A DNA stretch of 64,000 nucleotides from Nesterenkonia sedimenti (lineage in GTDB: Bacteria; Actinomycetota; Actinomycetes; Actinomycetales; Micrococcaceae): positions 62,001 through 126,000 of the forward strand of contig NZ_JABAHY010000009.1 in NCBI RefSeq assembly GCF_012641515.1. The letters run 5' to 3'. The notes under the pieces are model-generated. The model saw only the letters and a program-made list of their open reading frames with translations. It searched no databases and was not told the origin of the DNA. Below, in pieces: positions 29,279 to 53,541 of the stretch (position 1 is its first letter; each line of letters starts with the position of its first letter). A program made the position numbers and the translations under genes.

Positions 29279-30742
29279 ATGAGCATGCATAATCACTCGT
29301 CATCCAGCTTCTCCGCATCCCACCTTCCCGGTATTGCCGCAACTGCTCTGACTGGCGCCCTGCTGCTCAGCGGCTGCGGAAATGGTGAGGACCCCGAGGC
29401 TGAGCTGGAGGAAGCACAGGAGGAGCCCACTCCTCTGGATGCCGGTGATGACGAGGAGGAAACTGACGGGGAGGATGAACCGGACTCTCCCGAGGCTGAG
29501 CCGGTGGACTTCCCCGGCACGCTCTCCGGGGAGACTGCCGAATACATCGTCCAAATCCTCAACGCCGAGGAGGACAGCACCGCTGAGGACTGGGAGAACC
29601 GGCTCAGTGAAACATTCCGCTCCGAATACGATGAGACCGAGCTGGCTGAGGTGATCAACACCGGTCTGCGGCCTGCTGCCCCCTTCACACCCACTGATCA
29701 CAGTGATACCGGGGACGCCTCGGTCACCCACCTGGAGTCCGAGGATGCCGAGGTGGAGCTGCATATCCAGCTCGATGAAGATGAGCTCATCGAGCTGCTG
29801 GTGTTCCTGCCACCGCAGGAACCGGCTGAGGAGGCCACCTCCTTCGAGGAGATTCAGCAGCGACTGCCGGAACTTCCCGGTGACGGGGCGATGCTGGTGC
29901 TCGAGGACGGCGAGGAGCTCCTGGGCATCAACACCGACCAGGCCGCCGGGATCGGCTCGACCTTCAAGCTCTATGTGCTGCTGGCCCTGGTTGAAGCCAT
30001 CGAGGAGGGTGAGACCTCCTGGGATGAGACTCTGGAGCTGGCCGAGGAGCATATGAGCCTGCCCTCCGGGAACCTGCAGAATGAGGATCCCGGCTATGAG
30101 GTGACCGTCCAGGAGGCGGCCCAGGCGATGATCGAGATCAGCGATAACACCGCCACCGATCTGCTCATCGACCATCTGGGCCGCGATGCCGTGGAGGCCG
30201 CCGTCGAGGATTCTGATCATCATGACCCCGAACTGCTCCAGCCTTTCCTGACCACCCGCGAACTCTTCCAGCTGCGCTGGGGTGCCCCGGAGCTGGGTGA
30301 ACAGTTCAGCGAGGCCTCCGACATCGAGCATCGCCGCGAGATCCTCGATGAGGTCGCTGAGCTTCCCCTGGAGCTGGAGGCAGCGGATATCACCGACGAC
30401 GACGGCGCGGCCCGCGGACTGGAGTGGTTCGCCACAGTTGAGGACATCGCTGATCTGCTTGCACTGCTGGAGACATATGCCGAGGAGCATTCCGAGCTGC
30501 GCACGATCCTCAGTGAGAACCCCGGCATTCAGGCGGAGTCCCCCTGGTGGGACTATCTCGCCTTTAAGGGCGGCTCCTCCCCCGGTGTAGTGGCCGGGGC
30601 CTGGTATGCCACCGATGAGGAGGAGACCGAACGCACTGTGGTCTTCATCGCCTCCGGTGACCCTCAGGGCATCTCAACAGCGACCATGGAGTACTTCGGG
30701 CTGGCTACCAATGCGCTGGAGCTGGAGGCCGACTCCGAGTAA
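29279..30742 (+). CDS. LpqF-like serine hydrolase lipoprotein (NTF2-like domain plus beta-lactamase fold)
   Basis: 487 residues. Lipobox LSGC gives C33, followed by an acidic linker to about residue 75. Residues about 75-190 form an extra domain (TAEYIVQILNAEEDSTAEDW, EYDETELAEVI) that fits the Cpe/LpqF helper domain, also found in ORF12 of the clavulanic acid cluster. The C-terminal part has the beta-lactamase-fold triad STFK, SDN in EISDNTATDLL, and KGG in AFKGGSSPGVV. It is paralogous to the lipoprotein at 20538, which lacks the extra domain. It probably acts on a surface substrate; the activity is unknown. Its TAA lies inside the palindrome in front of furA. Confidence 0.85.
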   Translation: MSMHNHSSSSFSASHLPGIAATALTGALLLSGCGNGEDPEAELEEAQEEPTPLDAGDDEEETDGEDEPDSPEAEPVDFPGTLSGETAEYIVQILNAEEDSTAEDWENRLSETFRSEYDETELAEVINTGLRPAAPFTPTDHSDTGDASVTHLESEDAEVELHIQLDEDELIELLVFLPPQEPAEEATSFEEIQQRLPELPGDGAMLVLEDGEELLGINTDQAAGIGSTFKLYVLLALVEAIEEGETSWDETLELAEEHMSLPSGNLQNEDPGYEVTVQEAAQAMIEISDNTATDLLIDHLGRDAVEAAVEDSDHHDPELLQPFLTTRELFQLRWGAPELGEQFSEASDIEHRREILDEVAELPLELEAADITDDDGAARGLEWFATVEDIADLLALLETYAEEHSELRTILSENPGIQAESPWWDYLAFKGGSSPGVVAGAWYATDEEETERTVVFIASGDPQGISTATMEYFGLATNALELEADSE

Positions 30743-33631: not shown

Positions 33632-33985
33632 TTAGAGGCCGCCCTCATCGTCGTCGTCCTCGTCGTCGTCGTCGAGGCCGAGACCATCGTCGTCACCATC
33701 GTCGTCGTCCTCGTCGTCCATGCCGAGGTCGTCGTCCTCATCATCTTCAACGCCGGGTGCGTCGTCATCTGCAGCGTCGTCGTCACCCAGGTCGGCGTCG
33801 GCGTCGTCGTCGCCGTTCAGACCATCATCGCCGTTGTCCGGGTCAGCGGGCTCTTCCTGGTCGACGTCGTCATCGCCGTTCTCGCCGTCGCCGTCATCAC
33901 ATGCGGCGGCGCCGAAGAGAGCCAGGGCGGAAACGCCCAGGATGCCGGCTGCACTGCGAAGCTTGGTGTAATTCTTGTCTGCCAT
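33632..33985 (-). CDS. Small lipoprotein with an almost pure Asp/Glu mature part
   Basis: 117 residues. The signal peptide has KLRSAAGILG and lipobox AAAC with C29. The remaining 88 residues are almost only Asp, Glu, Gly and Asn, with a Asp-rich tail coded by GTC/GAC triplet runs. GGAGG lies upstream of ATG at 33985. The signal peptide is closely matched by the gene at 34135-34340 (same length, Cys at 29 in both), so they are a tandem pair. Such a charged surface chain could bind Ca, Mg or Fe, hold water or space the wall; none of this is proven. I recognise no named family. Confidence 0.78.
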   Translation of the reverse strand: MADKNYTKLRSAAGILGVSALALFGAAACDDGDGENGDDDVDQEEPADPDNGDDGLNGDDDADADLGDDDAADDDAPGVEDDEDDDLGMDDEDDDDGDDDGLGLDDDDEDDDDEGGL

Positions 33986-34061
33986 TTGAGGAGTTAACCT
34001 CCATTGATCAGTTTGGCGGTAGTTCTTCTTCAGCTTCTATTAAGTTTTTCTCGGCTAATGC

Positions 34062-34095
34062 CGGACCCCCTTCCGGAGAACCGAAAGGGGGTCCG
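34062..34095. repeat. 11-bp stem-loop between the two Asp-rich lipoprotein genes
   Basis: CGGACCCCCTT and AAGGGGGTCCG flank a 12-base loop. It lies 40-73 bp beyond the stop of the gene at 34135 on the minus strand. No U-tract follows on that strand, so it may be a weak terminator or an RNA-stability element. The rest of 33986-34134 holds nothing else I can identify. Confidence 0.5.
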
Positions 34096-34134
34096 TACGC
34101 TAAGTAGAACTCAGCGCTTAGCTAGAGAGAATGC

Positions 34135-34340
34135 TTAGCCTGCATCCTCGTCGTCAGCTGCGTCGTCACCGGCGTCATCAGCTGCGTCGTCGCCGGTGTC
34201 AACTTCTTCTTCAGTGCCAGCGTCGTCGTCACCGGCGTCGTCTCCGCCGTCGTCGCAGGCGGTCACGCCCACCAGTGCGATCGAACCGATACCGAGGATT
34301 GCGGCGATCGAACGAAGCTTGTTGTTCTCGGTGGTAGCCA
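34135..34340 (-). CDS. Tiny Asp-rich lipoprotein, paralogue of the gene at 33632
   Basis: 68 residues from ATG at 34340, with GGAGG 11 bases upstream. The pattern N-N-K-L-R-S, A-A-I-L-G, A-L-x-G and the lipobox VTAC (C29) matches the neighbour position by position. The mature part is only 39 residues: repeated Asp-Asp-Ala-Gly and Glu units with no hydrophobic core, so it should be disordered. An open frame extends upstream to 34671 but does not look coding. The two genes have separate upstream regions, about 145 bp apart, and may be expressed separately. Confidence 0.72.
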
Positions 34341-34654
34341 TAAGCTTTGTTACCTCCGTGATTGACTGCATCTGGTCTGATGCTGGGCGGGCTTTCCGCC
34401 TTCCACCCAGTGATGCTTGGGTCACATCCCTGGATGATCTGACTCCATCATCACCACAAAACTTCCGTGAGGAAAAGTCCCAAAGGGGGGTTTTGGGTGA
34501 ACTCTGGGGGGACTCATGGGAAGTGTCCAGGTTCAGAATGTCACCAGTGTTGTTTTTTAAGCTTTTGTCCAGGTTCAATGGTCTTTCCTGAACATTCCAT
34601 TGGCGTCGGCGAGGCTGCCTAATCGCTAATGAATCCAGGTCTGACGTGGACAAA

Positions 34655-34688
34655 ACGGCCCCGGACCGCATTTGCAGCCCGGGGCCGT
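34655..34688 (-). terminator. Rho-independent terminator after the lipoprotein at 34711
   Basis: ACGGCCCCGG and CCGGGGCCGT form a perfect 10-bp stem with a 14-base loop. On the minus strand it is followed by TTTTGTCC. It lies 23 bp beyond the stop at 34711. Confidence 0.75.
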
Positions 34689-34710
34689 CTCGGAAGGAGA
34701 CTTTCTGTGC

Positions 34711-35712
34711 TTACATCGCGGACTCGCCGATAGCGTTCAGCTCCTCCTCGGAGAGGGCCTCAGTGGGCTCTTCCTCGGGCTCAGCCTCACTCCAGTCACT
34801 GAAGGTGATGTTCATGACCATGCCTTCGACATTCATGTCGATCTCATGCAGCACCGGTGCTGATTCATCGGCCAAGAAGACGAACTCAAGGTACTCCTCG
34901 CCATTTTCCTCGCGGTAGACCCAGACATCCTCACCATCGCGATCTTCGGACTCTCCGGTGAGCGGAGCTTCGCCCAGGGAGGAGATTCCGGCCTCCTGCA
35001 GCATGTCGTCGCGGAAGTTCTCGATGAACTGCTCAGGGGTCTCGATCTGGCCGCTCAGGGTGCTGCTGACATCGATCCACTCCGCGCCCTGGGCCTCCAG
35101 CTCCTGGCGCAGAGCCTCAGGATCTACCCCGGCCTGAGCATCGGGTTGCAGGGAGGTGTACTCCTCGATGAAGGAATCCACCGACTGGTAGATGGTGCTG
35201 CCCTCGTCAAAGAGGCGGTAGTCGATGATGTCCGCCATCTGCCAGGTGCTGCCATTGCCCTGCATATCCCCGGAGATGATGATCTCCACGGTTTCGCCTT
35301 CGGATTCTGCCTCCAGCTCATCATCCTCGGCACCGGAATCCTCAGTGCCGTCCTCAAGCTCATCTGTGGGCAGCTCTTCCATTCCGAACAGCGCCGCGGG
35401 CACTTCCGCGGTCACGGTCACGGAGTCCTCAGCCAGGGAAGCCTCCCAGACCTCATCGCCGATCTCGGAGAGCTCAGGGGCCTCTCCCCCATTGCCCTGG
35501 GCCTCATCTGGATCAGGCTCCTCGCCATCCTCATCGGCGATCTCACCGGGGGTGTCGCCCTGTTCCTCAGCACCGTCGGGATCGACATCCTCCTGTGCGG
35601 AGTCATCGGGGGAATCGTCACCGGCGGTGGTCTCTTCTTCATCGGGGCCGCAGGCGGTCAGCGCCAGAACGGCGACGCCGAAAATGCCAGTAGTACGGTA
35701 CAGCTTGCGCAT
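34711..35712 (-). CDS. Acidic lipoprotein, possible LppX/LprG-like fold (paralogue 2)
   Basis: 333 residues. Lipobox LTAC gives C21, followed by about 55 residues rich in Asp, Glu and Gly. The mature domain resembles those at 28217 and 35727: IGDEVWEASLAEDSVTV, EYTSLQPDAQ, EQFIENFRDDML, GEDVWVYREENGEEYLEFVFLADESAPVLHEI and TFSDWSEAEPEEEP. AGAGGACG lies 8 bases before ATG. It follows the paralogue at 35727 with a 14-bp gap, so the two form an operon ending at the terminator at 34655. A role as a surface carrier or binding protein is inferred only. Confidence 0.8.
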   Translation of the reverse strand: MRKLYRTTGIFGVAVLALTACGPDEEETTAGDDSPDDSAQEDVDPDGAEEQGDTPGEIADEDGEEPDPDEAQGNGGEAPELSEIGDEVWEASLAEDSVTVTAEVPAALFGMEELPTDELEDGTEDSGAEDDELEAESEGETVEIIISGDMQGNGSTWQMADIIDYRLFDEGSTIYQSVDSFIEEYTSLQPDAQAGVDPEALRQELEAQGAEWIDVSSTLSGQIETPEQFIENFRDDMLQEAGISSLGEAPLTGESEDRDGEDVWVYREENGEEYLEFVFLADESAPVLHEIDMNVEGMVMNITFSDWSEAEPEEEPTEALSEEELNAIGESAM

Positions 35713-35726
35713 GTGCTGCGTCCTCT

Positions 35727-36605
35727 CTATTCATCGTTGACATCATCTGCATCCTCTTCGAGCTCCTCAGTGGGCCAGCCATATTCTTCGGCGATGGCCT
35801 CGAAGATCTCGTCGAGGGTGATGTATTCATCCGGCTCTGGTGCATCTGGTGCCGGGGAGTCATTCCATTCGGTGAAGGTGTACTGGGCCTCGAAGTCGTT
35901 GATGCCCAGCAGATACGGCTCGTCCTGTGCTGAGACGATGTATTCGGTCTCGCCGTCGGCAGTTGTGTAGACCCAGACCTCCTGGTCCTCGCGGGTCTCG
36001 GCCTCGGCTTCCATGGCGTCGATCTCGTCGTCGTTGAGCTCCTGCTGCCAGGTGGTGATGAACTCTTCAGCGGAGAAGACACTGCCGCCCTCCTCCTCGA
36101 ATTGCACCCATTGGTCCCCTACGAGGTCCTCGACGAAGTCCTGGCTGATCTCCTCAGCGACTTCCTCGTCGAGTTCGCTCAGCAGCAGGGCGGCGAAGTC
36201 CTCGCCCAGGAAGTACTCCGCTCCCTCGACGGCGCGTTGGGTCACGCTGGCGTCCCCGGCGGTGAAGCTCATCTCTGAATCGGTGCCGTCCAGGGCTCCG
36301 CTGATGCTGATCTCGCCGGTGGTATCACCGTCGATCGTGTCGTAGAGCTCGTCGAGGTCAGCCTCGCCGGCTTCGACCTCCCCGCTGATGGTCACTGATT
36401 CTGCCTCCAGCATGGCGGTGAAGACATCCTCACGGATATCACCGAAGCTGGGCGGCTGACCGGTTTCGGCCGTATCGGCCGCATCGGTTTCGCCACTGGT
36501 GCCCACCGGCTGGGCATCCTCGCGGTCAGTTGCGTCGAAGGGGTTGCCGCAGCCGGTCAGCCCGACGGTGGCGATGGCGGCGAGGGGGAAGATGCTTCGC
36601 CTCAC
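35727..36605 (-). CDS. Acidic lipoprotein, possible LppX/LprG-like fold (paralogue 3)
   Basis: 292 residues. Lipobox LTGC gives C19, followed by a shorter linker of about 35 residues. The mature domain follows the same plan as paralogues 1 and 2: FTAMLEAESVTISGEV, GDQWVQFEEEGG, EEFITTWQQEL, REDQEVWVYTTADGETEYIVSAQDEPYLLGI and TFTEWNDSPAPDAPEPDEY. It is the first gene of a two-gene operon with the lipoprotein at 34711. The upstream gene-free piece 36606-36718 holds its promoter; I saw no palindrome there. Confidence 0.8.
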   Translation of the reverse strand: MRRSIFPLAAIATVGLTGCGNPFDATDREDAQPVGTSGETDAADTAETGQPPSFGDIREDVFTAMLEAESVTISGEVEAGEADLDELYDTIDGDTTGEISISGALDGTDSEMSFTAGDASVTQRAVEGAEYFLGEDFAALLLSELDEEVAEEISQDFVEDLVGDQWVQFEEEGGSVFSAEEFITTWQQELNDDEIDAMEAEAETREDQEVWVYTTADGETEYIVSAQDEPYLLGINDFEAQYTFTEWNDSPAPDAPEPDEYITLDEIFEAIAEEYGWPTEELEEDADDVNDE

Positions 36606-39492: not shown

Positions 39493-42400
39493 TCAGGCTT
39501 CGGTGCTCACCTGCTCCGCACGCTGTGCCCGACGGTGGCGGCTGATGGCCACCAGTACTGCTCCGATCAGTAGCAGCAGAACGGCCCCGAGTGCCAAGAC
39601 GCTCATCTGGGTACCGGTGACTGCGAGGCCGCCGGTCTCAGTGTCTTCCTGACCGTCGAGCTCTGCCAGGGCACTCTCTGCGTCATCGTCGTCGGGGACG
39701 ATGACAGTGGCGTAGGTCCAGCCGATGAGTTCGCCCTCGGCGGTGTAGAGCGCCAGCCGGTGTTCACCGGGGCTGACATCCTCGGGCACGCTCAGGGTGG
39801 CGATTCCCTGGTCATCGACCTCGGATGTGCCCAGTGAGACGGGCTCGGAGAACAGCCAGCCGGCCACGGTGGGCTCGTCCTGGTGGTCCTGCCCAATCTG
39901 GACCTCAGCGGTTCCGCCCGGGACAAGCGGCGGGTTGAGCAGCTCGATGAGACCTTCGTACTCATCAGTGAGCTCGCCGGCCTCAGGTGCCCCGGAAACC
40001 GGATCAGCCGTTGCCTCCTGTGTCGGGGTCGGCGTCGTTGTCTCAGACTCCGTAGGTGTTGGCTGCGTGGGATCCGAGTCACCGGGCTCCGTCTCACGGG
40101 GATCAGGCTCGCCGGATTCTGTCTCGGTCGGCGCAGGCTCCGTGGGAGCAGTCTCCGTGGGTTCGGGCTCGGTGGGCTGAGCCTCAGTCGGATCAGGCTC
40201 CGTGGGCTGAGGGTCGCTCGGTCCGGGGTGGGTGGGCTCGGGTTCGCTCGGTTCCGGCTCAGTTGGTTCCGGCTCCGTGGTCTCTGGCTCCGTCGGCTCG
40301 GGCTCAGTCGGCCCCGGTTCCGTGGGCTCCGGTCGAGGGCTTTCGCTCTCTCCTGGATACGGGGTGTCCGGTTCCTCCTCTGGAACACCGGCTGTGAAGG
40401 TCTGGACTGCTGAGGGGCGGTTCTCATCCACCCGTCCCAGAGATTCCGAGGTGGTCAGCGCGTACCAACCATAGGCCTCGTCCTCGGTCAGACCCTCCCA
40501 TGCGGTTTCCGCGGGCTCCTCGGCAGTGACTTCCTGCTCTTCGCTGAGTGCCTCCACCTCGGTCAGCACGGTCAGTTCCTGACTACTGACCTCCTTGGAC
40601 CACATGAGGTCGATGGACATCATGGCCTCATCCAGTTCTGGTCCGAACTGGCCCGCACGCTCCGGGGGCTGGAACTGATGCGGTTCGAAGCTGTCATAGA
40701 TGGGCGTGTAGTGGTTGACCGCCATCTGACCGCTGTCGACGTCGATCTGCATCAGACGGTTGAACAGTGCAGTCCTTCCGCCCTCGTGCTCATAGGACTG
40801 GAAGTCCGCCACGGTCTCGACCACCCAGCGGTCATCCTGGGTGCCCTCCTCGCGCTGGCGGATACCGTGCAGATGTCCGGAGAGCACCAGGACCACATTG
40901 GCATTGGGCTCCACGAGGCGTTCGAAGTAGACATCACCCTGCGAGGACCAGCGACCGTTATCGGGGTTGGCCCGCTCATCGATCTCCGGCCGGAGGTACT
41001 CATGGGTGCCGATGACCACGTTGTGGTCGGGATGTTCGGCGATGATTTCCTCGGCCCACTGCAGCTCCAGCTCGTGGGTGTAGTAGGCCAGGGAGAGGAA
41101 GAGCATCTTCACTCCGTCCTGTTCGATCACGCTGTAGCTGGAGCTGTTGCCCAGCGGTCCGGCTTCTCCGTACCACTCGTAGTCGGCGTAGCGCTCCTCG
41201 GGGAAGTACTCGAGGTAGAGCTCGTTGTTATTGCCCCAGAAATTGTCGTGGTTTCCGGGCAGCACAGCATGCGGCAGCCCCGAATCCTCGAGGATCTCCT
41301 GGATCACCGAGACCCGTTCGAACTCCCGGTCAGCCCGCTCCCGGGTCTGGTTGCCGCGCAGTGCGTTTTCGATGATGTCGCCGGTGTGCATCTGGAAGGC
41401 GATGTCTCGGGAATCCATATTGGCGGCGAACCAGGCCTTCATGGCCGTGTAGACCCAGGGGTTCTGCTCGGCTGTGTACTGGGTGTCGGTGAGGTGGCCA
41501 ATGCTGAAGTCGTAGCTTCCGGGGTCCTGGAAGGAGAGGTTCTCCTCCTGGTCCAGAATCTCCAGGGTGCGGGGACCGTCCTGGATCAGTACGTTGATCG
41601 CACCTTCCTGGATATGCTCCGGATCGGGCTGGGCGGTCAGCGTGATCTCCCCGCCCTCCTCCGCGGCACGGGCATCGATCAGCTCCCAGCTCTGGCCGTC
41701 CCAGAGGTAGAGCTGCAGCTCATTGCGGTTCTGCGAGGATCCGGTCCAGATGATCTCGGAGGACTCCCCGAGCTCATCGGCCTCGATCTCCATGCGGAGA
41801 TAGGGGAAGCCACGTTCGGCATCGGCGATCTCAGTCTGCACACCCTGGGTCTCGATCTCATCCTCTCCGGTTCGGCCGGCGAGCCCAGCCTCAGCGGCGA
41901 CACCGGTGAAGGTGCGGAAATCAGGTTCGACGACGCCGCCGCCGCGCAGACTCATAGTTCCCTCAGCGCCTGCCTGGGCGGTGAGCTCCTGAGCGGGGTC
42001 CCCAGTCTCCGCACTGACCTGGGAGGCCAGTTCTGCCGGGGAGCTGAAGGAGAACCGGTCGAGGTTGACCGGATCGAGTGCGCCCTCCTCCGGGACCAGG
42101 GGGTCCACATAGTCCAGCTGGACGTATTCGCCGGGGTCCCGGTCGGTGGCGTAGTAGTCCTCGTAGTTGTCGCCGGTGTACTGCACCCGGTGCCAGGAGA
42201 AGCCGTATTCGAAGGCTTTATCCACCGATTCCTTGGCCACCCGGACATCTAGGGGCATCTCCCCGGTGCAGAGGCTGGGCGGAGCATTGGTCACCGCACC
42301 GGCGTAGGAGTAGTAGACCCCTACCCGGTCGACGATGGCGCCCTCCTCGTCGGTGATCATCACACCGTAACCCTCGGGGTCCAGTTCGTCGCGGGCCACT

Positions 42401-45012
42401 GCATCATGTCCCAGGCCCTCGGCAGGGTTGGGGTTGGCCAGAGTGAAGACCTCATCGGGGGCAAGTGTGGCGCCTTGTTCGAACTGGGCCTGAGGTGTGG
42501 GGATGCGCCGCCCATCGGCGGTGCAGTAGTAGACCTCCCAGTCGGAGATGTCCACTTCTTCCTCACCGCGGTTGGCGATCTCGACGAAGCCCTCGCTGGT
42601 GCTGCCTTCGAGGTCTACAGGACCGCCTGCGGCGAGCTCCACGATCTGGACATCGGAGGGCTCCAGCACCTCGGGCTGGACAGAGACCAGTTCCTCCCCG
42701 TGTTCGCCGGGAGTACGCAGGCCACGGTCGAAATCGGCCCGGTTGTCCCCGGATGTGTCGGTGCGCTGCCAGGATTCGCCTTCGACGAAGTCGAGATCAT
42801 TGGGCAGGGCTTCCCCGTCCGTGCAGGGTGAGTCCACGCCGGAGAAGACTCCGACAGTGTCGATGATGGTGCGATCGGCGTCGGTGATGACAACACCGAA
42901 TCCGCCGTCGGTGGCGAAGCTGGTGTTGTAGAGGGCATCGGCTTCCCCGGAGAACCCGTTCTGCCGGCCTGCCACGAAGGACTCCCCCGGTGCCAGAGTG
43001 TGATCGGGCAGGGTCAGCTGCAGGGTCTGTTCGTGGACCCGGCCGGTGCCAGCGCAGCGGTAGAACCGCCAGCCACCGATGTTGACCTCTTCATCGCCGA
43101 GGTTGGTCAGCTCCATGAAGTTATCGGCGGCGCCTTCGGGACCGCCATTGGCGACCTCGGTGACCAGGACATCCGATTCGGTGCGGGGCCGTTCCCAGGT
43201 CTCGGGGTCGTTAACCCGTCCCGGGGTTCGCGGTGCCAGGTGCCAGTCCTGTTCGGCATCGCCGGTGAGGTCGATGCGCTGCCAGGATTCGGCGTAGAGC
43301 CCATGGGCAGTTCCGGGCAGTGCCCCGTAGTCCTGGGCGCAGTAGTTCTGCACTCCGGCCGGAGCTGAACCGACCCGGTCGACCACACGGGAGTTCTCAT
43401 CGAAGATGATCAGTCCGTACTGGTCGGCGAAGCTGATGTCGAAGGTGAAATCGGCAACGGCCATGATGTCGGGTCCGGCCTGTTGGGCGCGGGCTGCGGT
43501 GAGCATCTCACCGGGTTCTAGGACGACTCCCTCGAGGTCCTCTAGGGCCAGCTGCGGGACAGAGGCCCGCACACCGGTTCCGATGCAGCGGTAGACGCTC
43601 CAGCCGGAGAGGTCCTGGGGCTCATCACCGTAGTTGGTGAGCTCGAAAAAGATATCCCCTGCACCCTGGGGGCCGTTATTGGTCATCTCGGAAACCAGTA
43701 CATTGGCTCCGTCCTCGGTGGAGAGGAACTGTTCGGTCTCCTCCTGTTCCACGGGGTCATTGGCCTCCAGCTGGCCGGGGCTGCGTTCGGCCTGCACGAA
43801 GGTTTCGGCGTTCTCCCCCTCGGTGCTCTCCCGCTGGTAGCTGTTGCCGGCGGCGACGTCGAGGTCGTAGTACGGCAGGGGGTCGCCATGGGCGCAGGCG
43901 CCGGTTTCGTTATCGGCCCAGGCCACGGCGTCGACCAATTGGCCATCGGCGTTGCGGAGCACGACTCCGGCGTTGTTTCGGCCGGGGACGAATCCATTGG
44001 GAGCCTCGACGACGAGGGCCTCCCCCGGTGCGATGCTGCTGAGATCATCGGAGAGCTGATCGGCGGCGAAGCGCTGGCCCCATTCATTGCAGCGCCAGAG
44101 CTCCCAGCCTTCGAGGTCCACCTCGGTGTCGCCGTAGTTGCCCAGTTCCACGAGGTGGTCGTCCTCGCCCTCCGGACCGGCATGTGCCACCTCGGAGATC
44201 AGGATATCCCCGCCCACAGGTCCCGGTGCTGGTTCCTCAGCATTGGGCTGGCCGGGGGTGCGTTCTGCTGTGATGAAGTCTGCGGAGTTATCTCCGGTGT
44301 CGCCTATCCGCTGCCAGGACTGGCCGGCGTAGGAGTCGGTGGTGTTGGGCAGCTCGGTGCCGTCCACACAGGCGGTTCCTGCCACGTTCGGGAATTTCAC
44401 CCCGACCCGGTCGACGATCTCTCCCTCGGCGTCGCGGATGATCGCCCCGTAGGAGTCGTTTGCGAAGGACGTTCCGTAGCGCTGATCGACGATGTCGTCG
44501 CTGAGGGTGGACTGTGCGTGGGTGCGGGCCAGCAGCAGCTGCTCCCCTGGTTCCAGAGTCCCGTCCAGGGTGACCTGGGGGTCTGCGGCCTGATTCCCGG
44601 CCCCGGTGCAGCGGTAGACGGTCCAGCCCTCGAGATCCTGGGCTTCTTCGCCCCAGTTGGCGATCTCGATGAAGTTGTCGTGATAGCCGCCGGGGCCGCC
44701 GTTGTTCAGTTCGGAGACCAGGACCCGGGCGCCGTCGGCTACCTCCTGCTGGGTGGTCTGGTCTGGTTCCTCCTCCTCGGAGGGCTCATCCTCCTCGTTG
44801 GGGGTCTCAGACTCTTCCTCGGTGGGTTCCTCTTGGTCTGAGTCCTCTTCGCCGTTGAGCTCCTGGTCTTCACTGACCTCAGAGTCCGGAGGAAGTTCTT
44901 CGGGCTGGTTCTCCGTTCCGGCGGCCCAGGACGGGGGTAGAACGGTCAGGACCATGGAGGCTCCGAGGAGCGTGGCCATACTGATCCGTCCGCTGTGTCG
45001 TGATGTGGACAC
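39493..45012 (-). CDS. Giant cell-wall phosphoesterase with five lamin-tail domains and LAVTG sorting signal
   Basis: 1839 residues. A signal peptide (about 1-30) is followed by an acidic linker (to 92). Five lamin-tail-like beta domains start near residues 97, 268, 436, 615 and 788, each with LVSE-type strand, a Gly-Pro loop, an E-x-x-N-x-G strand and GW-x-x-Y-x-C. A calcineurin-type phosphoesterase lies at about 1165-1440, with HLTDTQ (1172), HTGDIIE, LPGNHDN (near 1251), GTHEY and SGHLHG (near 1379). A Pro-Thr-Glu repeat stalk (about 1590-1700) leads to LAVTG (near 1793), a hydrophobic helix and a basic tail, the pattern for class E sortase in actinobacteria. It may hydrolyse extracellular phosphoesters or DNA. 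A PHO-box-like repeat lies 89 bp upstream. Some phosphate-scavenging enzymes combine such domains. Confidence 0.93.
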   Translation of the reverse strand: MSTSRHSGRISMATLLGASMVLTVLPPSWAAGTENQPEELPPDSEVSEDQELNGEEDSDQEEPTEEESETPNEEDEPSEEEEPDQTTQQEVADGARVLVSELNNGGPGGYHDNFIEIANWGEEAQDLEGWTVYRCTGAGNQAADPQVTLDGTLEPGEQLLLARTHAQSTLSDDIVDQRYGTSFANDSYGAIIRDAEGEIVDRVGVKFPNVAGTACVDGTELPNTTDSYAGQSWQRIGDTGDNSADFITAERTPGQPNAEEPAPGPVGGDILISEVAHAGPEGEDDHLVELGNYGDTEVDLEGWELWRCNEWGQRFAADQLSDDLSSIAPGEALVVEAPNGFVPGRNNAGVVLRNADGQLVDAVAWADNETGACAHGDPLPYYDLDVAAGNSYQRESTEGENAETFVQAERSPGQLEANDPVEQEETEQFLSTEDGANVLVSEMTNNGPQGAGDIFFELTNYGDEPQDLSGWSVYRCIGTGVRASVPQLALEDLEGVVLEPGEMLTAARAQQAGPDIMAVADFTFDISFADQYGLIIFDENSRVVDRVGSAPAGVQNYCAQDYGALPGTAHGLYAESWQRIDLTGDAEQDWHLAPRTPGRVNDPETWERPRTESDVLVTEVANGGPEGAADNFMELTNLGDEEVNIGGWRFYRCAGTGRVHEQTLQLTLPDHTLAPGESFVAGRQNGFSGEADALYNTSFATDGGFGVVITDADRTIIDTVGVFSGVDSPCTDGEALPNDLDFVEGESWQRTDTSGDNRADFDRGLRTPGEHGEELVSVQPEVLEPSDVQIVELAAGGPVDLEGSTSEGFVEIANRGEEEVDISDWEVYYCTADGRRIPTPQAQFEQGATLAPDEVFTLANPNPAEGLGHDAVARDELDPEGYGVMITDEEGAIVDRVGVYYSYAGAVTNAPPSLCTGEMPLDVRVAKESVDKAFEYGFSWHRVQYTGDNYEDYYATDRDPGEYVQLDYVDPLVPEEGALDPVNLDRFSFSSPAELASQVSAETGDPAQELTAQAGAEGTMSLRGGGVVEPDFRTFTGVAAEAGLAGRTGEDEIETQGVQTEIADAERGFPYLRMEIEADELGESSEIIWTGSSQNRNELQLYLWDGQSWELIDARAAEEGGEITLTAQPDPEHIQEGAINVLIQDGPRTLEILDQEENLSFQDPGSYDFSIGHLTDTQYTAEQNPWVYTAMKAWFAANMDSRDIAFQMHTGDIIENALRGNQTRERADREFERVSVIQEILEDSGLPHAVLPGNHDNFWGNNNELYLEYFPEERYADYEWYGEAGPLGNSSSYSVIEQDGVKMLFLSLAYYTHELELQWAEEIIAEHPDHNVVIGTHEYLRPEIDERANPDNGRWSSQGDVYFERLVEPNANVVLVLSGHLHGIRQREEGTQDDRWVVETVADFQSYEHEGGRTALFNRLMQIDVDSGQMAVNHYTPIYDSFEPHQFQPPERAGQFGPELDEAMMSIDLMWSKEVSSQELTVLTEVEALSEEQEVTAEEPAETAWEGLTEDEAYGWYALTTSESLGRVDENRPSAVQTFTAGVPEEEPDTPYPGESESPRPEPTEPGPTEPEPTEPETTEPEPTEPEPSEPEPTHPGPSDPQPTEPDPTEAQPTEPEPTETAPTEPAPTETESGEPDPRETEPGDSDPTQPTPTESETTTPTPTQEATADPVSGAPEAGELTDEYEGLIELLNPPLVPGGTAEVQIGQDHQDEPTVAGWLFSEPVSLGTSEVDDQGIATLSVPEDVSPGEHRLALYTAEGELIGWTYATVIVPDDDDAESALAELDGQEDTETGGLAVTGTQMSVLALGAVLLLLIGAVLVAISRHRRAQRAEQVSTEA

Positions 45013-45100
45013 GCGTGATTCCTTCCACTTCTGATGTACCTCATAAGGTGCTGGGGATTCCCTGACGATAGAAGCAACAGAAGGTGGAGCAGCCCTTGCG

Positions 45101-45122
45101 CAATGATGAACCGGTGGTGAAC
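45101..45122 (-). promoter_or_regulatory. PHO-box-like direct repeat (two 11-base units) upstream of the giant phosphoesterase
   Basis: On the minus strand the two abutting units are GTTCACCACCG (45122-45112) and GTTCATCATTG (45111-45101). They share the GTTCAYC core of actinobacterial PhoP/RegX3 boxes. They end 89 bp before the start codon at 45012. The rest of 45013-45231 has no gene I can support. Confidence 0.6.
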
Positions 45123-50799: not shown

Positions 50800-51480
50800 C
50801 TACGCGTCGAACTTGTAGCCCAGTCCTCGGACAGTGACCAGCAGCCGAGGTTTGGCGGGATCAGCCTCGATCTTCGAGCGCAGCCGTTTGACGTGTACAT
50901 CGAGGGTTTTGGTGTCGCCGACATAGTCGGAGCCCCAGACCCGGTCGATGATCTGCCCGCGGGTCAGCACACGTCCGGCGTTGCGGATGAGGATCTCCAG
51001 CAGCTCGAACTCCTTCAGCGGCAGGTTCACACTGCGGCCGGCGACTTCGACGATATGCCGTTCGATGTCCATCCGCACCGGACCGGCCACGATCGTGGAG
51101 GAATCGTCGAACTCCGTGTCGACATGCCGGCGCAGCACTGCCCGCACCCGTGCCAGCAGCTCCCGGGAGGAGTAGGGCTTGGTGACGTAGTCGTCAGCCC
51201 CCAGTTCCAGGCCGACGACCTTATCGATCTCGGAGTCCTTGGCAGTGAGCATGATCACCGGCACCTGCGAGCGCAGCCGGATTTGGCGGCAGACCTCCGT
51301 TCCGGGCTGGCCGGGGAGCATGAGGTCCAGCAGCACCAGATCCGCACCTTCCTTATCGAAGACTTCCACGGCCTCTGTGCCATCCTCTGCGACGACGACG
51401 TCATACCCCTCCTTCTGCAAGGTGTAGGAGAGCGCCTCGGAGAACGAGGCCTCGTCTTCGACGATGAGAATCCTGGTCAC
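50800..51480 (-). CDS. regX3: Response regulator RegX3 (OmpR/PhoB family)
   Basis: 226 residues. The receiver domain has the acidic pocket in ILIVEDEASF, the phospho-acceptor in DLVLLDLMLPGQPG, and the Lys in DDYVTKPYSSRELL. The C-terminal winged helix (about 128-226) reads LPLKEFELLEILIRNAGRVLTRGQIIDRVWG and DTKTLDVHVKRLRSKIE. RegX3 controls phosphate-starvation genes in mycobacteria, doing the work of PhoB. It overlaps senX3 by four bases and follows it in the operon, with phoU divergent. Confidence 0.93.
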   Translation of the reverse strand: MTRILIVEDEASFSEALSYTLQKEGYDVVVAEDGTEAVEVFDKEGADLVLLDLMLPGQPGTEVCRQIRLRSQVPVIMLTAKDSEIDKVVGLELGADDYVTKPYSSRELLARVRAVLRRHVDTEFDDSSTIVAGPVRMDIERHIVEVAGRSVNLPLKEFELLEILIRNAGRVLTRGQIIDRVWGSDYVGDTKTLDVHVKRLRSKIEADPAKPRLLVTVRGLGYKFDA

Positions 51481-52736
51481 GCATTTCCTCCTGCAGTTGA
51501 CTGGGGTGCCCCAGCGGATTGTTCCTTAAGTTGCAATGTTTCTGCGACCTCGCGGCCCTCGGTGCCGAGGCCGGTGAGGTCATTGAGTCCCTCTTCCAGC
51601 TCGGGCAGCCGCACGGTGAAGGTCGATCCCTTGCCCTGCTGCGACCAGAGTGCCACCTCACCACCGTGGTTGCCGATGACGTGTTTGACGATGCTCAGTC
51701 CCAGCCCGGTGCCTCCGGTCTGGCGCGAGCGGGCGGCATCGACCCGGTAGAAGCGCTCGAAGATTCTTTCCTTATCCTCCGGGGAGATACCAATGCCCTG
51801 GTCGGTGATGGTGACCTGGGCGATGCCATCGCGGGAGGAAAGCCCGATGCCGACGCGGGTGTCCTCCGGGGAGTAGCGCACCGCATTGTCGATTAGGTTG
51901 CGGAAGGCCATGGTCAGCTGGTCGAAGTCGCCGTGGACCCGACGCGGCAGCTTCCCGCCCAGGCGCAGTTCAATGTTCTTGGCCTCGGCAGGCAGTCGGG
52001 AGCGGTCCATGGCTTCGCTGATGACTTTGTTGAGGTCCACCGGCACTCCGGCGTGGACCACGTTCTTGCCCTGGACCCTGGAGAGTTCGATGATGTCCTG
52101 AACCAGGGCAGCCAGCCGGTTGGACTCTTTGTGCAGCCGCTGGGAGAACCGGCGCACCGCATCCTCATCCTCGGCGGCGTCTTCAATGGTCTCGGCCAGC
52201 AGGCTGATGGCGCCCACCGGGGTTTTCAGCTCATGGGAGACATTGGCCACGAAGTCATTGCGGACCGCCTCAGTGCGGGAGACCTCTGTGCGGTCATCGG
52301 CCAGCACCAGGATATATTCATCCCCCAGGGGCGCGACCCGGAGGTTGACCACAATGGAGGTCTCTCCCTGCAGGCCACGTGGGAGTTCCAGCTGCTCTTC
52401 GATGATCACCCCGTCCCCGCGGACCCGGGAGGTGAGGTTCAGGACTTCCTGGTGGACCACCGTATGGCCGCGGACCAGACCGAAGGCGTAGGCGGCGGGG
52501 TTTGCCCGCACGACCCCATCGACAGTGTCGACCACGATATAGGCCAGGCCCAGGGAGGCCAGAACTTCGGTCGCCCCTTCGGGCATGGTGGGTTCGTCGA
52601 CGTCGATTCCGGCGGCGCGTTGGCGTTCGCTGACACGGAAGGCGTGCATGCCGACCACGCCGAGAGCGAGGCCGACGACGCCGGCGAGCATCGCGATCAG
52701 CAGAGTCGAGTCCACAGTCTCTAGCTTAGAGGTCAT
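51477..52736 (-). CDS. senX3: Sensor histidine kinase SenX3
   Basis: 419 residues from ATG at 52736. One N-terminal transmembrane helix (IAMLAGVVGLALGVVGM), no large extracytoplasmic domain, then a PAS-like region (about 50-145: LGLAYIVVDTVDGVVRANPAAYA). The kinase core has VSHELKTPVGAI with the phospho-accepting His, the N box NLIDNAVRYS, and G boxes in DQGIGISPEDKERIF and GGTGLGLSIVKHV. In mycobacteria the SenX3-RegX3 pair is kept off by the Pst/PhoU system when phosphate is plentiful. The start fits the position of the PHO-like repeats upstream. Confidence 0.93.
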   Translation of the reverse strand: MTSKLETVDSTLLIAMLAGVVGLALGVVGMHAFRVSERQRAAGIDVDEPTMPEGATEVLASLGLAYIVVDTVDGVVRANPAAYAFGLVRGHTVVHQEVLNLTSRVRGDGVIIEEQLELPRGLQGETSIVVNLRVAPLGDEYILVLADDRTEVSRTEAVRNDFVANVSHELKTPVGAISLLAETIEDAAEDEDAVRRFSQRLHKESNRLAALVQDIIELSRVQGKNVVHAGVPVDLNKVISEAMDRSRLPAEAKNIELRLGGKLPRRVHGDFDQLTMAFRNLIDNAVRYSPEDTRVGIGLSSRDGIAQVTITDQGIGISPEDKERIFERFYRVDAARSRQTGGTGLGLSIVKHVIGNHGGEVALWSQQGKGSTFTVRLPELEEGLNDLTGLGTEGREVAETLQLKEQSAGAPQSTAGGNA

Positions 52737-52777
52737 GTTCACCCGCTCGTTGCCGATCCGTAGGCCCGGGGTCAACA

Positions 52778-52810
52778 GTTCACGCGGTGTTCACCTGAGG
52801 TTTCCCTGTT
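52778..52810. promoter_or_regulatory. PHO box of three 11-base direct repeats between senX3 and phoU
   Basis: The units are GTTCACGCGGT (52778-52788), GTTCACCTGAG (52789-52799) and GTTTCCCTGTT (52800-52810). A further half-unit, GTTCATTCTGA, lies at 52823. This matches the 11-base repeat form of actinobacterial PhoP/RegX3 boxes. It lies 75 bp before phoU and 42 bp upstream of senX3, so both directions may be controlled. Confidence 0.75.
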
Positions 52811-52884: not shown

Positions 52885-53541
52885 ATGCGCAAACTCTTCC
52901 AGGAGGATCTGCTGAATCTGGGCGACCAGCTCGCGGATATCGCAGTCCTCGTCGCCGAGGCCATGGATAAGGCCTACCGCTCCTTCGAGACCGCAGATGT
53001 GCAGCTGGCTGAGGAGGTTATTGCTGCCGATCAGCGGATCGACGCGAAGCAGGTTGACCTGGATGAGAAGGCGATTGAACTCCTGGCTCTCCAGGGTCCG
53101 GTCGCCGCTGATCTGCGTCTGGTCGTCGGTGCGCTGCGGATGTCCACCTCCCTGGAGCGGATGGGTGACCTTGCCCGGCATATCGCCCAGCTGACGCGGC
53201 TGCGCTACCCCGATACCGTCTCCCCCACGGCTCTTGTGACCGTCTACCGCGAGATGGCGGAGAAGTGCCACAGCATCGCCAAAAAGCTCGTGGAGCTGCT
53301 GGTGACCCGGCAGCTGGACCTGGTCGATGAGATCGTCGCGCTCAATGAGCAGATTGATGAGCTCCATGCCGGTGTCTTCATCACCATCGCCAAGCCTGAC
53401 TGGGATGCCTCCCCCGCCTCGACTGCCGATGCCACCCTGGCCAGCCGCTTCTTCGAGCGTTTCGGTGACCACGGCGTCTCCGTGGCCCATAAGGTCCAGT
53501 ACCTGGTCACCGGTGAGTGGGAAACCAAGCCCACCGCCTGA
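52885..53541 (+). CDS. phoU: Phosphate-signalling protein PhoU
   Basis: 218 residues, two three-helix bundles. The metal-binding E/D motifs of the PhoU repeat are visible in the first half (ADQRIDAKQVDLDEKAIELLALQGPVAADLRLVVGALRM) and the second (VALNEQIDELHAG, then FERFGDHGVSVAHKVQYLVTG). It connects the Pst transporter to the SenX3-RegX3 pair and helps turn the response off. AAGGAAA precedes ATG. It is divergent from senX3. No pst genes are in this window, so the transporter lies elsewhere. Confidence 0.95.
   Translation: MRKLFQEDLLNLGDQLADIAVLVAEAMDKAYRSFETADVQLAEEVIAADQRIDAKQVDLDEKAIELLALQGPVAADLRLVVGALRMSTSLERMGDLARHIAQLTRLRYPDTVSPTALVTVYREMAEKCHSIAKKLVELLVTRQLDLVDEIVALNEQIDELHAGVFITIAKPDWDASPASTADATLASRFFERFGDHGVSVAHKVQYLVTGEWETKPTA

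Follow-up and report, generated by a model that had tools for sequence, protein, structure and literature searches.

What could a giant surface protein with five lamin-tail domains (LTDs) and a phosphoesterase do for an actinobacterium, and in which growth condition would it be made? The question is raised by a gene at positions 39493-45012 of a 64,000-nucleotide stretch of DNA from Nesterenkonia sedimenti (contig NZ_JABAHY010000009.1, positions 62,001 to 126,000 of the forward strand), which is called the window here at its full length. A sequence-only reading had proposed a wall-anchored phosphate-scavenging enzyme, and much of this stands, namely the PHO box, the wall-anchor signal, the catalytic residues conserved in the family and, for part of the relatives, the link to PHO boxes; what finds no support is a plain binding of polyanions by the LTDs. 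Judged from sequence, the product is probably a secreted, wall-anchored calcineurin-type phosphoesterase that serves in the phosphate-starvation (Pho) regulon. It belongs to the radiation around ShfP (YvnB) of Bacillus subtilis, described as a vast group whose members are secreted, have a calcineurin-like enzyme and carry surface domains such as LTD, Ig and SLH (PMC11488536). In particular, a RegX3-like regulator would switch the gene on at a perfect PHO box in low phosphate, and the enzyme would mine organic or wall phosphate.

Build of the protein and its PHO box

The gene, its upstream box and the parts of its product are the following, all on the minus strand:

45101-45122: PHO box, made up of the direct repeats GTTCACCaccg and GTTCATCattg, 11 bases each and directly adjoining (GTTCACCaccgGTTCATCattg), 0 mismatches
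39493-45012: gene for the surface protein, 1839 amino acids, GTG start (open reading frame list, Pfam)
44920-45012: predicted signal peptide, roughly residues 1-31 (read by eye from a short basic start, a hydrophobic core and PSWAAG at its end)
44398-44736: LTD 1, residues 93-205 (LTD search, as for the next four)
43915-44217: LTD 2, residues 266-366
43366-43713: LTD 3, residues 434-549
42847-43185: LTD 4, residues 610-722
42316-42663: LTD 5, residues 784-899
41545-41835: conserved flank N-terminal of the enzyme, about residues 1060-1156 (alignment with the Bacillus protein of locus L267)
40693-41544: calcineurin-like phosphoesterase domain, residues 1157-1440 (Pfam, motifs, predicted fold)
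40378-40692: conserved flank C-terminal of the enzyme, about residues 1441-1545 (alignment with the L267 protein)
39943-40377: Pro/Thr/Glu stalk, about residues 1546-1690 (composition)
39496-39627: cell-wall sorting signal with LAVTG (residues 1796-1800), a hydrophobic stretch and the basic tail RHRRAQR (motif)

From the N-terminus, the order is predicted signal peptide, acidic linker, five LTDs, flank, phosphoesterase, flank, stalk and sorting signal, with a region without any family match between the stalk and LAVTG. Pfam scores the five LTD stretches at 196.6 bits and places Metallophos at residues 1170-1382 (35.5 bits, cut-off 21.5), and the whole genome holds no LTD other than these five (E up to 0.001). 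The two flanks are taken as halves of an Ig-like domain around the enzyme, by analogy with ShfP, from which the name is borrowed and whose calcineurin-like domain reportedly interrupts an Ig domain (PMC11488536). As the NCBIfam LAVTG model reaches 20.1 bits, under its cut-off of 27, the sorting signal is assigned because of the LAVTG motif itself and of the class E sortase gene, the genome's one sortase match (NCBIfam, 198.2 bits, cut-off 160); the other features of class E substrates, an LAXTG-type motif followed by a hydrophobic stretch and a basic tail, are all present. Because of the signal peptide, read by eye, this sorting signal and the long stalk, the protein should stand out from the wall. 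The domains, stalk, LAVTG anchor and class E signal named in the sequence-only reading are borne out by Pfam, the LTD search and the C-terminal sequence.

The two GTTCAYC repeats had been reported correctly as well, since they abut exactly and sit 110 nt 5' of the GTG start. By the definition given in a review, a PHO box consists of two 11-base direct repeat units, and in Streptomyces coelicolor GTTCACC is their most conserved part (PMC4415409); two such units, the mark of the Pho regulon, are what lies upstream of the 1839-residue gene. This is the sole zero-mismatch match of the two-unit pattern in the window, where matches with at most two mismatches number 6 vs 1.47 expected from shuffles. 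The 3.11-Mb genome has three perfect GTTCAYCN4GTTCAYC copies, which precede this gene, pstS (identified by NCBIfam TIGR00975, above cut-off) and a lipoprotein gene. With at most two mismatches there are 137 genome places vs 19 for the reversed pattern, an excess that may be due in part to codon bias. Boxes with one mismatch lie 5' of genes for a Na/Pi symporter, a UgpA-like permease and an ABC transporter ATPase and of the senX3-phoU pair; several further such copies lie inside genes, probably by chance. The lipoprotein gene behind a perfect box (C45:48280-48297, locus L006) has no Pfam or NCBIfam match and lies downstream of a second lipoprotein gene, similar by eye, which makes it a candidate Pho-regulated lipoprotein of no known family.

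The same kind of repeats had been noted between senX3 and phoU, and this holds too, with phoU beside a HisKA kinase and an OmpR-type regulator:

50800-51480, minus strand: OmpR-family response regulator, RegX3-like (Response_reg, Trans_reg_C)
51477-52775, minus strand: sensor kinase, SenX3-like (HisKA; domain search)
52778-52806, plus strand: PHO-type array GTTCACG, GTTCACC, GTTTCCC with 11-base period, between senX3 and phoU (pattern search)
52885-53541, plus strand: phoU (PF01895)

The regulator, the putative activator of the surface-protein gene, matches no equivalog model over cut-off among the 25 shown, and it is called RegX3-like because of the gene order.

PHO boxes upstream of the relatives

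Relatives with the same build were found by two routes. A single-sequence search of a contig collection gave none; an alignment-based search gave 576 loci, and among the best 80 of these, the named set, the closest relative is an Enteractinococcus metagenome-assembled genome (L188; 66% domain identity) with five LTDs, an LASTG anchor and a 12/14 box, GTTCATCcaaaATTCACT, at -109 (the window's box being at -110). When the two upstream regions are aligned, the boxes coincide and are, by eye, among the clearest shared blocks. The second, L067, came from a search of the order and has five LTDs and the same enzyme at 55% identity; its C-terminus consists of SLH-like repeats without a sortase signal, that is, the same head on another wall anchor. 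The sequence-only reading knew of no described system with this exact build; this finds no support, as five-LTD enzymes occur in L067 and L188 and the family lies within the published ShfP-like radiation, LTD fusions included (PMC11488536).

The search of the order (query residues 1000-1500, E up to 1e-8) found relatives in 103 of 396 genomes, own genome counted. The promoter set comprised 120 places from other genomes, the second place of the own genome and the window gene, with L077 and L085 excluded; 16 weaker places of the search (number by eye) lie outside it. Promoters were scored against the two-unit consensus with a threshold of at least 12 of 14 positions. In a first set of 60, the window's included, 14 reach the threshold, every one on the sense strand, and across all 120, a number that takes in the window gene and the broken second copy of the own genome, it is reached by 21 on the sense and 5 on the antisense strand, as compared with 8 of 842 control promoters of other genes at the same loci. 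Two of the 21, L081 and L084, were discounted, since on inspection the likely true ATG lies within the consensus match; both fail the matrix test. By inspection, several loci have arrays of three to four units with an 11-base period, often with a TAG-type element close behind.

A matrix test points the same way. Its threshold was taken at the 99% level of the controls, 836 promoters in all, and 119 instead of 120 promoters were scored, the missing row probably being the masked L162. With three units at 11-base period, 20/57 LTD-bearing and 8/62 LTD-less promoters exceed the threshold (controls 9/836), and with two units the counts are 13/57, 8/62 and 9/836, respectively. At least one box by either score is present in 11 of 21 LTD-bearing genera, own genus included, and in 6 of 8 families. 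Of the 20 actinobacterial LTD-bearing loci in the named set, 4 reach 12/14, one of which (Ruania) is probably L072 again. The direction of the box enrichment upstream of the homologues is clear, and it makes the case for a phosphate link better than could be known from this locus alone. The sequence-only reading had staked its proposal on the repeats not being absent from every relative, and PHO-type arrays indeed recur. In a FastTree phylogeny of 131 domains the boxes change 24 times, with gain and loss indistinguishable. LTD-less proteins of about 2300-2800 residues with a related DxQ phosphoesterase (L128, L129, L134, L145) have PHO-like boxes too, and the phosphate link may therefore extend past the LTD forms.

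Several observations weigh against a phosphate-regulated role. Strand specificity failed among the LTD-bearing promoters of the later-fetched set, where the two-unit consensus is reached in 3/24 on the sense and 5/24 on the antisense strand, and the three-unit matrix gives antisense matches in 6/57 LTD-bearing promoters (0/62 LTD-less). The window's own box passes the two-unit matrix and fails the three-unit one (9.4 vs 12.6). The p-values of the matrix test overstate the case, as the three-unit matrix was set by hand after a first look at part of the data and the promoters of relatives are not independent samples. No box is present in 10 of 21 LTD-bearing genera, none by consensus or matrix upstream of L067, and none reaching 12/14 in the 26 Firmicutes rows of the named set, which exclude L255 (Cellulosimicrobium). 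ShfP itself has a putative sigma-G site, its authors also discussing phosphate release from teichoic acid (PMC11488536), and the top Foldseek match of the enzyme, pig purple acid phosphatase, is a reminder that fold does not decide substrate. The five antisense matches of the later set all come from one genus, g22 (L154, L157, L161, L169, L182), where PHO-like repeats lie 79-170 nt 5' of the first possible start; they may represent a reversed operator, a divergent gene or chance.

That the window's box is a chance match, leaving the gene without phosphate regulation, is nevertheless very improbable. GTTCACC-like strings are frequent, as the 137 genome places tell, but this box is perfect, intergenic and on the right strand at the right distance, a degenerate copy lies at the same distance in L188, and boxes recur in the homologues over the controls.

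The enzyme and the lamin-tail domains

The marks of a calcineurin-like metallophosphoesterase (D-x-H/Q, GD, GNH, H, GHxH) are all found in the window protein, whose Pfam score lies above cut-off. D1176, Q1178, G1211-D1212, GNHD (1253-1256), H1337 and GH (1379-1380) are invariant in 120/120 aligned domains, a count that shows within-family conservation since it was their similarity to the window protein that brought the domains into the alignment, with L162 and the short L127 left out (120/122); H1382 is present here and not conserved throughout the family. The sequence-only reading had called the enzyme intact, which holds for the family-invariant residues and needs a qualification for the first metal motif, which is D-x-Q (DTQ) in place of the usual D-x-H. 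This motif has an active precedent in ADPRibase-Mn, as Gln27 of the human enzyme, at the same motif position, coordinates metal in a docking model (PMC4334965), and with Mn the enzyme is reported to cleave ADP-ribose and CDP-alcohols including CDP-glycerol (PMC4334965, PMC3407115). Among eukaryotes, ADPRibase-Mn is described mainly from vertebrates and plants (PMC4334965, PMC3407115). The motif typical of this family is D[V/I]Q, alongside its own regions s2s3 and h7h8, and the window protein has DTQ at that place; its profile match to the family is distant, and ADPRibase-Mn, unlike the window protein, has neither LTD nor wall anchor.

A surface adhesin with little or no catalysis that keeps the phosphoesterase fold could be imagined from the large size, the five LTDs, the stalk and the DxQ in place of DxH, but it is a very unlikely account, as the family-invariant residues are kept and DxQ is found in all 120 domains, with the active precedent just named.

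Fold comparison gives a hint of the kind of chemistry. A profile of 32 relatives run against solved structures had zebrafish ADPRibase-Mn (2nxf) as its best match (E 3.2e-7), with SbcD and Mre11 among the weak ones, and the NCBIfam model of the cyclic-AMP phosphodiesterase CpdA is matched by 10 of the 32 profile members, not by the window domain. The AlphaFold2 model of the catalytic domain (predicted local distance difference test score, pLDDT, 89.9) was aligned with VIA-align, in which rows at most 1 Z apart count as tied. The top solved folds are Lmo2642 (2xmo; Z 21.0, root-mean-square deviation 3.5 A, 237 aligned residues), GpdQ (3d03; Z 20.0, 3.1 A, 225 aligned) and Rv0805 (Z 19.6, 3.3 A, 216 aligned), at 14-17% identity, followed by SMPDL3A (Z 19.6), ADPRibase-Mn (Z 19.2), purple acid phosphatase (Z 19.1) and Mre11 (Z 18.1 at best). 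PhoD folds are missing from the list, which is evidence neither way. GpdQ, Lmo2642 and Rv0805 are not known to be secreted LTD fusions. The modelled fold leans towards a phosphodiesterase, a phosphomonoesterase being possible and no substrate being named.

A different use of the same domains would be that of a surface nuclease acting mainly on extracellular DNA or RNA, as a functional counterpart of ExeM (Shewanella oneidensis) and NucH (Corynebacterium glutamicum), which are extracellular nucleases of the phosphate-starvation response. In C. glutamicum, PhoR~P binds the promoter of nucH, which is a member of the Pho regulon (PMC3353115), and an ExeM/NucH family protein of this species is also named in PMC12021427. 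Phosphate starvation raises the expression of ExeM, an LTD-carrying protein, which is reported to degrade DNA more slowly in vitro when the LTD is removed (PMC6085458). The LTD stretch of the window protein matches the N-terminal part, and only that part, of the NCBIfam ExeM model, at 32.5 bits and thus far under the cut-off of 1300, and SbcD and Mre11 are themselves nuclease-side matches of the catalytic profile. On the other hand, the catalytic domain of ExeM is of the exonuclease-endonuclease-phosphatase (EEP) type, unlike the calcineurin-like enzyme here, and Pfam finds no EEP domain in the window protein; the nearest folds are Lmo2642, GpdQ and Rv0805, ahead of Mre11; the LTDs are acidic; and ExeM without its LTD is described as clearing DNA on plates almost like the wild type (PMC6085458). 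A nuclease is therefore unlikely, although it remains the most serious competitor of the wall-anchored phosphoesterase serving in the Pho regulon.

The acidity of the LTDs also bears on the suggestion that the five repeats may bind a polyanion such as DNA or wall glycopolymer. All 141 LTDs scored have a net negative charge (median -10 per 100 residues), and binding of DNA or teichoic acid by charge was rejected as a simple mechanism, cation-bridged binding being possible. The LTDs are instead taken as spacers and docking modules, and the five of them would dock probably via protein or cation-bridged contacts rather than positive charge.

Taken together, the phosphoesterase would work as follows. 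With the predicted signal peptide, the class E sorting signal and the long stalk, the protein would stand out from the wall; the Gln of D-x-Q would act as a metal ligand, and the dimetal centre would hydrolyse phosphoesters. Its likeliest substrates would be phosphodiesters, for example polymers of glycerol phosphate, the head groups of phospholipids, or nucleic acids in the vicinity of the wall. The products could then be taken up by transporters with PHO boxes of their own, namely Pst, the Na/Pi symporter and the UgpA-like permease.

Family placement, meaning and origin

The window protein aligns with L267, a Bacillus protein of 1296 residues, at 28% identity over 510 residues (189 bits, E 1e-54), with both enzyme flanks covered. 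Judged by eye, the L267 gene is flanked by uvrA and hprK, and MFS and MarR genes adjoin it. Its length, close to the 1289 residues of ShfP, and this position at uvrA and hprK, which fits yvnB in B. subtilis, lead us to take L267 for a YvnB orthologue. The yvmC-cypX pair, a neighbour of yvnB in B. subtilis, was not seen in the L267 locus. YvnB is described as repressed by PchR, with yvnB near yvmC-cypX and yvmBA (PMC4992311). In the FastTree phylogeny (131 domains, no bootstrap), the window protein, L067 and L188 form a group (support 100) within a 23-row set (97), and the 8 Bacillales rows fall in a separate 49-row set (100), PHO boxes being present in both sets. Relation of domain and flanks to the Bacillus protein, an LTD fusion and secretion, predicted by eye, place the window protein in the ShfP-like radiation; as it is not in the tree clade of the Bacillus proteins, it is placed there as a member and not as a ShfP orthologue. 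The family is thus already known, and the window protein, with its five LTDs, its sortase signal and the PHO box of its gene, represents a variant within a published radiation. ShfP and the window protein share secretion (predicted here), an N-terminal LTD and a calcineurin-like domain near the C-terminus, whereas the window protein has five LTDs instead of one, a stalk, a sortase signal and a PHO box in addition, and lacks the run of Ig domains described ahead of the enzyme in ShfP.

The shared radiation raises the possibility of a ShfP-like action, in which glycerol or another alcohol is freed from a surface polymer as a signal, a nutrient or for wall remodelling, with phosphate gain being secondary. 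Indeed, ShfP generates extracellular glycerol, with lipoteichoic acid as the suspected source (PMC11488536), and the alignment with L267 covers the enzyme and both its flanks. Yet in each of the two LTD-bearing clades actinobacterial members repeatedly have PHO boxes, and the Bacillus proteins fall in a clade that does not include the window protein, which makes such an action decidedly improbable here.

An identity with PhoD, the Pho-regulated teichoic-acid hydrolase of B. subtilis, which shares the calcineurin-like superfamily, the cell surface and phosphate starvation (as told in PMC11488536), was rejected, as PF09423, the Pfam family of PhoD, does not match the window protein (E up to 1). 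The whole genome has no PhoD match, and GDPD domains occur at six places in it.

For ShfP-like phosphoesterases as a large bacterial surface family, of which the studied member acts in sporulation (PMC11488536), the recurrent PHO-box link suggests a concrete role, phosphate mining, for the actinobacterial members and names the growth condition in which to seek their substrate. With this link, the bacterial LTD would be tied to phosphate starvation not only in the nuclease ExeM but also in a second type of enzyme. A broader proposal, which is possible though doubtful, is that in many Micrococcales, here including a genome without PhoD, members of the radiation are Pho-regulated miners of phosphate from their own or their neighbours' glycerol-phosphate wall polymers, that the LTD stack on a sortase-anchored stalk sets the reach across the wall and that the glycerol release by ShfP in Bacillus is a later re-use of an old phosphate mining. 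In a partial library, where absence is no proof of novelty, no record joining "lamin tail" with "Pho regulon" was found, nor one joining any three of RegX3, PHO box, phosphoesterase and Micrococcales; the 10 records listed out of 181 in a broader search do not contain "lamin tail", and one record joins the lamin tail domain with metallophosphoesterases. The words "lamin", "metallophosph" and "phosphoesterase" are absent from the main text of the review PMC7866108, and the two records listed out of three for the lamin tail domain, phosphate starvation and bacteria are the ShfP and ExeM papers.

Among the sampled genomes of the genus the gene stands alone. No relative was found in the 29 others (three are less than 80% complete and a fourth is 82%), which disfavours a vertically inherited genus trait. 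Among 28 other icd loci, viewed with 1500 bases of flank, G003, G006 and G015 have within about 100 bases of icd the luciferase-like gene that in the window lies beyond the surface-protein gene; the latter is missing in between, which leaves an empty site, G003 being the closest by icd (92%). Other loci have one extra gene or other genes behind icd. The gene was therefore probably gained, a gain appearing likelier than many losses, although its GC content is not unusual. Elsewhere in the own genome (C64:17750-18650; L028, L037, L127), a 13/14 PHO box lies 5' of a 193-codon open reading frame that is the C-terminal part only of a related phosphoesterase, with GHYH kept and DxQ and GNHD missing; an E/P/T-rich stretch follows in another reading frame, and the locus is probably a decayed second copy.

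Other surface-type genes lie in the window. At 33632-36605 (minus strand) there are three consecutive acidic lipoprotein-like reading frames, and Pfam at E up to 1e-4 matches neither of the longer two (34711-35712 and 35727-36605); at 29279-30742 (plus strand) a lipoprotein-like reading frame has an ORF_12 N-terminal domain followed by a Beta-lactamase2 domain.

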